A stretch of DNA of 64,000 bases from Paenibacillus aceti (GTDB taxonomy: Bacteria > Bacillota > Bacilli > Paenibacillales > Paenibacillaceae), in the NCBI RefSeq assembly GCF_003614185.1, contig NZ_KZ987724.1, forward strand, positions 3,934,107-3,998,106. Reading direction: 5' to 3'. Both the position numbers and the translations under genes were made by a program. Positions 11,062 through 25,088 of the stretch are shown here, piece by piece (within the stretch, counting starts at the first letter, position 1; every line of letters starts with the position of its first letter). The notes under the pieces are model-generated. The model was not told the origin of the DNA. It saw only the letters and a list, made by a program, of their open reading frames with translations, and did no database searches.

Positions 11062-11101
11062 AGATCATGGTCCTTTCCCAATATGATTACTTAAAGAGAT
11101 A

Positions 11102-11249
11102 GTTCAAAAAGTCTAATTTTGCTCCTGATGTGAATCAGGATGCTATTCGGCAGCGAATCTTGAATTCAGCCGGGCCTAAGCAAATGCTTATGAGGTTATG
11201 CCCTAGCTTCACCCAACCTTCTCGGAGCTGAAAACCGGCCTTTTTGAAC
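11102..11249 (-). repeat. Divergent solo copy of the 166-bp structured element
   Basis: In the minus orientation this reads GTTCAAAAAGGCCGGTTTTC, then CCGAGAAGGTTGGGTGAAGC, then GCTGAATTCAAGATTCG, ending AGACTTTTTGAAC. That is the same block order as the tandem units at 24450-24981, with a different central loop. Terminal arms GTTCAAAAAG / CTTTTTGAAC pair. Internal hairpins are TCCTGAT / ATCAGGA (11123-11140) and ATTCG / CGAAT (11145-11158). It fills most of the gap between the MCP gene and the winged-helix gene. Confidence 0.8.
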
Positions 11250-11366
11250 GCGCACTTAGATTAGTATTCGACATATTCCATCATTCTCCTCTCTAGGCCT
11301 TAAAGCCTAGCTCCCGGCACGACACCACCATCCATCCGCAAAACATGTAAATAGGCAAACTATGTA

Positions 11367-24430: not shown

Positions 24431-24449
24431 ACTACCGATTTCCATTAGG

Positions 24450-24981
24450 CCGCAAAAGTCCGGGGGGGCAGACCCGAGAAGGTTGGATGAAGCAGGGGGC
24501 GAGGAGCGGAGCGTACGTTATGAGTACGTGAGCACCGGAGAGCCCTGCTGAGTTCAAGATTCGAGGTCGACTTACTCCCTGAGTTACCTAGGGATCAAAG
24601 GCGGATTTTTTAAACTCCTAATTTAAATAAAGGTTTAAAAAGTCCGGGTTTCAGACCCGAGAAGGTTGGAGGAAGCAGGGGGCGAGGAGCGGAACGTACG
24701 TTGTGAGTACGTGAGCACCGGAGAGCCCTGCTGAGTTCAAGATTCGATGTCGACTTACTCCCTGAGTTACCTAGGGATCAAAGGCGGACTTTTTAAACTC
24801 CTAATTTAAATAAAGGTTTAAAAAGTCCGGTTTTCAGACCCGAGAAGGTTGGATGAAGCAGGGGGCGAGGAGCGGAACGTACGTTGTGAGTACGTGAGCA
24901 CCGGAGAGCCCTGCTGAGTTCAAGATTCGATGTCGACTTACTCCCTGAGTTACCTCGGGATCAAAAGCGGACTTTTTAAAC
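24450..24981 (+). repeat. Tandem array: three copies of a 166-bp structured element
   Basis: Units lie at about 24450-24615, 24633-24798 and 24816-24981 and are nearly identical. They are separated by the same 17-nt AT-rich linker (TCCTAATTTAAATAAAG). Units 2 and 3 have perfect 14-bp terminal inverted repeats (GTTTAAAAAGTCCG / CGGACTTTTTAAAC); the left end of unit 1 is eroded. Inside: GCAGGG / CCCTGC closing an arm with ACGTAC / GTACGT, and TCCCT / AGGGA near the 3' end. A diverged fourth copy lies at 11102-11249. It fills the 650-bp gap between the response regulator and the sugar-binding lipoprotein. No coding capacity is evident. Confidence 0.92.
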
Positions 24982-25088
24982 TTCCTCTAAAATCTGAAGA
25001 TTATCCCCTATGGTGCTGGATAATGCCCCCTTCTCCCCCACAGAGGATGCTCTTATACTGAACCTGAACATATAAAGGAGGGGAAGTC

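Follow-up and report, generated by a model that had tools for sequence, protein, structure and literature searches.

A dispersed structured palindromic repeat of Paenibacillus with an apical hairpin common to several bacterial phyla

Three tandem units from the genome of Paenibacillus aceti are copies of a mobile structured repeat, and the tip of its hairpin is common to several phyla. That the array is more than a chance arrangement is confirmed by the covariance model R1: built from 45 copies, it has 58 matches in the same genome, at 56 distinct places (two are opposite-strand doubles). The element probably belongs to an ERIC-type superfamily of mobile hairpins that are not autonomous, and an enzyme reading the folded strand would move it in trans.

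The window, that is, the whole analysed stretch of 64 kb, contains the array at 24454-24982 on the plus strand, with three units arranged head to tail and unit starts 183 nt apart. The 166-nt part by which the units had been described extends by 6 nt on either side, and the real element has about 180 bp. Unit 1 (24443..24621 with these end extensions; R1 match G000:C1:3958549-3958727) is decayed at the 5' end: GTTTA is missing from its 5' arm, and its 3' end is CGGATTTTTTAAAC, with one change. Thus the perfect 14-bp ends that the earlier note ascribed to all three tandem units are present in units 2 and 3, whereas the terminal repeat of unit 1 is imperfect. Units 2 (24627..24804) and 3 (24810..24987) are complete elements matched by R1, with the 166-nt parts at 24633-24798 and 24816-24981, respectively. 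The shared linker of 17 nt, TCCTAATTTAAATAAAG, indeed occurs twice and is composed of 6 + 5 + 6 nt. The 5-nt spacer TTTAA between units 1 and 2 (24622..24626) occupies the position of a target duplication; the same TTTAA separates units 2 and 3 (24805..24809), and TAAAA directly follows unit 3. The apical cores are at 24505..24534 in unit 1 (AGCGGAGCGTAC at 24505-24516, loop, GTACGTGAGCA at 24524-24534), at 24688..24717 in unit 2, and at 24871..24900 in unit 3; the latter two have the form AGCGGAACGTAC .. GTACGTGAGCA. All three are matched by the tip model R2 described below. The window holds one more copy of the element, diverged and with the apical hairpin replaced (11096..11255, minus strand; R1 match G000:C1:3945202-3945361); it is missed by R2.

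The array is preceded by genes of a sensor kinase (His_kinase) and an AraC-type response regulator, the stop codon of the latter lying 12 nt before the array. A solute-binding protein gene follows about 100 nt downstream, and then two permease genes. The placement between a YesM/YesN-type pair and a sugar operon is therefore correct, as is the absence of coding capacity, the element being short and non-coding.

The family is dispersed. With one unit as the query, BLAST produced 52 matches in the same genome, the full-length ones outside the array being 75-86% identical, and matches were found in the genomes of 31 out of 59 relatives. R1 has matches in 164 of the 393 sampled genomes of the order, representing 19 of 49 genera. 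Among 398 genomes sampled across the phylum ten match, five of them outside the order (best E from 3e-10 to 4e-8); most copies in these five measure only about 150 nt, and their ends are similar. Rfam release 15 has nothing above the gathering cut-off in the window, and a relaxed cut-off added only matches at the level of chance. In 18 cross-phylum loci the same database yielded two tRNA matches and one AsdA match, all away from the core. One partial match was observed in 50,697 phage records. Five of 72,556 plasmid records match, two of them by the core alone, and one of the best plasmid matches lies under an annotated gene. The core is carried by 20 viral contigs. With so few phage, plasmid and viral matches, the element is mainly chromosomal.

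The fold is conserved, with strong covariation, on the plus strand only. RNAalifold applied to the MAFFT alignment gives 46 pairs. The fraction of paired cells is 96.8%, and two-sided changes are seen in 22 of the 46 pairs (shuffled mean 8.6); neither value was reached in 500 shuffles. Sliding the partners lowers the pairing to 27-48%. The inner stems GCAGGG/CCCTGC and ACGTAC/GTACGT, pointed out from the single sequence, are conserved stems of this fold, whereas the third proposed stem, TCCCT/AGGGA, falls in a region that is unpaired in the consensus. The consensus energy is -43.0 kcal/mol on the plus strand versus -16.5 on the minus strand, and the plus strand is the more stable one in all 45 copies. 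The minus-strand fold contains 23 A-C oppositions versus 13 G-U pairs. When the arms are scored in a strand-neutral way, G-U exceeds A-C both in the 45 copies (55 versus 12) and in 120 hits of the cross-phylum set (258 versus 81). The same holds for 30 non-redundant cross-phylum hits (51 versus 27; by elements, 19 versus 6 with 5 ties). However, 16 distant Bacillota copies, which are not independent of each other, have the reverse asymmetry, 21 G-U versus 38 A-C, and this counts against the explanation that we prefer. The check proposed in the earlier note, a search for homologues and covariation, thus gave many interspersed copies with a covarying fold, rather than an isolated locus or lost stems.

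The consensus ends are RTRNRW-GTTCAAAAAG and CTTTTTGAAC-WACCTC. Comparison of all offsets in 57 solo copies revealed a target duplication of 5 bp, of the type TWWWA, which lies 6 nt beyond GTTC at one end and 6 nt beyond GAAC at the other. The identity of the flanking 5-mers is 64.6%, while 500 shuffles had a mean of 47.7% and a maximum of 53.3%. The duplication is perfect in 19 of these 57 copies, most often TATAA, TAAAA or TAATA. In a distant genome consisting of one contig (G595), exact 5-bp duplications flank four out of six copies read (ATATA, TTAAA, TACTA, TTTAA). Duplications identified by eye are also found in Fulvivirga (TANNTA at six of seven copies, among these six one whose 5' end is shortened) and in a proteobacterial MAG (all four copies, 5-7 nt). 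For the copy in locus L042, three of the eight relatives searched lack the element and have both flanks adjacent; the target TTATAG is single in G361 and G021 and altered in G034. In three other relatives the search matched only the element, and in two it matched nothing. The interspersed copies, covariation, target duplications and empty site support the original suggestion, which was either a structured RNA or a palindromic element that can be mobilised.

The element has the characters of MITEs: inverted terminal repeats, short length, non-coding sequence, target site duplication, and empty sites; MITEs also are shorter than 500 bp. It could then be an ordinary MITE, whose terminal inverted repeats are read by the DDE transposase of an insertion sequence; the fold would then be a side effect of the palindromic sequence, and movement would not depend on the tip. 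We regard this as possible, but rather unlikely. The ends are alike in all Bacillota copies with the 5-bp duplication, even distant ones, and a transposase reading the termini would produce the same, which argues against our preferred explanation; derivatives of 30-60 bp that retain little but both ends, some with perfect duplications, also favour a MITE. On the other hand, no parent transposon was found in the searches described below, the constant part across phyla is the tip and not the ends, and a covarying fold conserved on one strand is not expected from a MITE.

A longer element with such ends was sought in several sets of genomes. The 22 exact 3'-end sites of the P. aceti genome all are short copies, fragments or single ends, and the 11 end sites found in G595 all lie within short copies. 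A pattern of the ends excluding the family interior produced 53 sites in 41 genomes of the genus, and the 30 of them that were read contain no autonomous element. The opposite end is within 220 nt at 20 of these sites; at the remaining ten, the longest frame is no transposase by Pfam, one frame having no match at all. In 296 genomes of the family, the end pattern lists 12 loci. No partner was seen in the fetched part of 52 sites listed for five distant genomes, in which the G595 sites are fully covered. Truncated or diverged ends could conceal an autonomous element from searches of this kind.

End-only derivatives of 30-60 bp are numerous (L082 393, L083 395, L188, L192, L206, L211), some of them with perfect duplications. 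One derivative of 30 bp, with little beyond both ends, is flanked by TATTA on either side. They may be deletion remnants or a mobile mini-form.

The apical hairpin of the element is AGC-GGA-GCGTAC..GTACGT-GA-GCA. Using one genome per species, we scanned for exact matches to the core pattern AGCGGAGCGTACN{4,10}GTACGTGAGCA. This two-part core of 23 bases occurs in at least 119 genome stretches, the chance expectation being about 0.05. Among the matches listed are Mesorhizobium and other Alphaproteobacteria, Klebsiella, Kosakonia, Pseudomonas, Lysobacterales, Deltaproteobacteria, Listeria, Paenibacillus, Mogibacterium, Fulvivirga, Rikenellaceae (Bacteroidota), Nitrospirales and Binatota, including several MAGs. 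A relaxed core was counted in 16 genomes reached from the core loci; ten of them have 7 to 58 copies, and the reversed pattern is absent from all 16. The highest count is that of a Rickettsia endosymbiont (58 copies in a 1.4-Mb genome), followed by Fulvivirga (39), two Mesorhizobium (37 and 16), three Listeria (32, 16 and 11), a Lysobacterales MAG (23), a proteobacterial MAG (13) and Sphingosinicella (7). Pseudomonas viridiflava has two copies, and the remaining five genomes have one each. That the tip is common to several phyla is thus a firm observation.

The flanks of the core are unrelated in sequence between lineages, yet they pair with each other. In 30 non-redundant hits, the mean energy of flank pairing is -52.5 kcal/mol versus -26.0 with swapped partners, and 17 of the 30 lie past the 1% tail. 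In an alignment of 27 copies from different phyla, 75% of the cells in the helix beyond the core are paired, and the innermost variable pair is retained in 26 copies (AU 13, GC 9, GU 4). Covariation evidence from this alignment is moderate: the paired cells and the covariation score are above all 500 shuffles, but two-sided changes, seen in 7 pairs, are no more frequent than in shuffled alignments (6.4; 246/500), and a slide by +1 comes near, with a covariation score of 0.208 versus 0.279.

These 27 copies, with Paenibacillus and enterobacteria excluded, were used to build the model R2. As they were collected by the exact pattern, the constancy of the core in R2 holds by construction. The E-values of R2 are rough. 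Its only matches in the window at E up to 1 are the three units, with E from 5e-13 to 2e-11. Its five matches in 82 kb of other loci all are within copies of the family.

In Listeria fleischmannii (L374-L379), all six copies read by eye directly precede a hairpin with a T run, the sequence of which differs each time. Transcription terminators thus look like places where the repeats insert or persist.

The tip resembles that of ERIC. Two E. coli copies, located with the ERIC centre sequence, both have the tip fold CCCCAG-GA-GCUUAC..GUAAGU-GA-CUGGGG. R2 matches both at the same place and on the same strand (E 9e-6 and 2e-5 in 1088 bases, next best 1.1). The common features are the stem, the GA/GA loop, and GCNUAC..GUANGU with the basal G-U. 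The motifs AAGGCG..ACGCAG of the ERIC lower stem also occur in some copies from other phyla, a strict string test detecting both in 5 of 121 core hits. However, the ERIC tip is GGAGCTTAC, with no extra bulged A, and the ERIC stem and ends are of unrelated sequence. The target duplication of ERIC is TA. The element is not ERIC proper: the 127-bp sequence is unmatched over its length, the plan of the tip alone being common, and the 5-bp TWWWA duplication is not TA. The window units have the apical core hairpin on the same strand and at the top of the palindrome, the features by which we propose to define an ERIC-type superfamily. Common descent of the ERIC tip and the tip of our element is likely; the alternative is convergence on a shared factor.

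Other repeats are similar to a lesser or greater extent. Rickettsia palindromic elements (RPE) are known for in-frame insertion into genes. The 58 copies in the Rickettsia endosymbiont genome point to a likeness with RPE, although they were counted as core and not as named RPE families. In the excerpts of PMC2229807, RPE are long stem-loops of 105-146 bp. ERIC, also named IRU or RU-1, is described there as a small non-coding palindrome with many copies, considered mobile and with no demonstrated enzyme, like the element considered here; in contrast to it, ERIC has 127 bp and TA at the termini. This review keeps ERIC, RPE, RUP, Correia and others apart as distinct families, and it leaves the enzyme open. 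The range of ERIC given in the excerpts of PMC10969869 is Enterobacteriaceae and Vibrionaceae. The repeats bcr1-bcr18 (BCR) of the Bacillus cereus group, as outlined in excerpts of PMC6542083 and PMC3446304, are also small and numerous on Bacillota chromosomes, show features of mobility and contain a TTTAT motif; here the likeness is one of description, and we claim no shared core. Among the open-licence papers listed by literature searches, judged by title and opening lines of the abstract, none reports a common ERIC-like core across phyla.

The genomic context was analysed at 126 non-redundant sites, with a simple gene caller and with frames overlapping the element dropped, so that the counts represent an intergenic view. 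Co-directional genes surround the element in sense at 50 sites and in antisense at 38; 14 sites are divergent, 10 convergent, and 14 not assignable. Solo copies have no preferred orientation, with 24 in sense and 26 in antisense, whereas arrays lean to sense, 26 versus 12. At co-directional sites the 3' end is nearer to the gene edge, with medians of 37 nt to the start (sense) and 13 nt to the stop (antisense), while the medians on the 5' side are 83.5 and 102.5.

The sense bias of arrays counts against our preferred explanation and leaves room for a role in cis, in which the element would be a regulatory RNA of the adjacent genes (an attenuator, an mRNA stabiliser or an RNase site) retained by selection. 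The position of the window array between the regulator pair and the transport operon and the closeness of the 3' end to gene edges are consistent with that, and so is the effect of Yersinia ERIC on mRNA stability, which depends on orientation according to the excerpts of PMC2229807. However, we consider such a role improbable, given the balance among solo copies and the decay of the orthologous site in all three relatives examined. Given these two observations, a special link to the adjacent sugar operon is not supported as a general function. Moreover, no promoter-like site directed outward was found at the array, and the only terminator-like site there is on the other strand, about the number expected by chance. 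Conservation of one strand, combined with the absence of orientation preference in solo copies, suggests selection on the spreading copies rather than on a local effect.

A family of trans-acting small RNA genes multiplied by duplication would also have a fold conserved on one strand, and the position of the six Listeria copies before hairpins with T runs would suit it. Nevertheless, it is very improbable in view of the target duplications, the empty site, the decayed copies, the lack of promoter-like sequence at the array, and the 58 copies in a genome of 1.4 Mb.

Arrays have a regular structure. All 30 pairs of neighbouring units examined are head to tail, with linkers of 16-18 nt in 23 of them. 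At orthologous sites the number of units varies between species, for instance 4, 3, 2 and 2 at one site. In the gap orthologous to that of the window array (L131-L133), G008, G031 and G003 retain just a 3' or 5' remnant of one element. Insertion at this site is therefore old, and the present lineage has retained the array or enlarged it.

The first unit is shortened by at least 15 nt in 32 of 60 arrays, whereas the last unit is cut before model position 160 in none. Here 60 is 63 groups minus three single elements split by deletion, and orthologous arrays are counted separately. Truncation of the first unit at its 5' end might be a trace of target-primed reverse transcription. In one orthologous pair, however, it arose afterwards, through deletion between short repeats, and we therefore do not count it as evidence for an RNA intermediate. 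This deletion is the sole explanation of the polarity seen so far.

Smaller repeats occur within and near the copies. A double hairpin of about 42 nt (of the type AAGCATATGCTTnCGG..GTTTTC..GAAAAC..TTCAG) has two insertions in one copy and none in the orthologous copy (L057 1499-1739 versus L050 1499-1664). Similar stretches occur in L048, L049, L286, L292 and L305. This is a nested micro-repeat, apparently mobile. A third repeat, CGATACCACGTTTCGTTAG and/or TTAGATATAGAATTTAT..GTTATCAGC, breaks or adjoins several copies of the element (L019 about 1289-1365, L020 about 1640, L012 about 1354, L028, L077, L092).

These data are best accommodated by a mobile hairpin moved in trans. The element, of about 180 bp and presumably without its own enzyme, forms on one strand a long multi-part hairpin with a near-invariant tip. 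A trans-acting factor may recognise the folded strand, either RNA or transiently single-stranded DNA, via the GGA/GA tip. We infer that the mobilising enzyme reads the tip, and that it reads it as RNA; such recognition would explain why the tip is constant while the stem and the ends vary with the lineage. Insertion duplicates 5 bp of an AT-rich target, copies are dispersed over the chromosome, and some have decayed by deletion. Most copies would be neutral once inserted, and tandem duplication would enlarge the arrays. The window array may descend from one ancient insertion, expanded later to three units in the present lineage. The duplication is 5 bp in copies of the Paenibacillus type and 5-7 elsewhere, and thus a single enzyme for all of them does not follow.

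A broader and more doubtful proposal, which we put forward only tentatively, is that a single SINE-like class, present throughout bacteria, includes the Paenibacillus element together with ERIC and the dispersed palindromes of Mesorhizobium, Rickettsia, Listeria, Fulvivirga and others. Its members would be short structured RNAs, or folded single strands, with an invariant tip. A widely conserved enzyme, of the host or of a parasite, would read this tip, copy the element and insert it, the stem and the ends diverging in each lineage.

The common tip makes ERIC, RPE and similar repeats one comparative problem across phyla. Since the tip is common, the enzyme or host factor should be shared, or convergent on the same tip, and a search for it can use co-occurrence as well as pull-down with a single RNA. 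A searchable model now exists for a class of repeats that is unmatched by Rfam release 15 in the loci tried.
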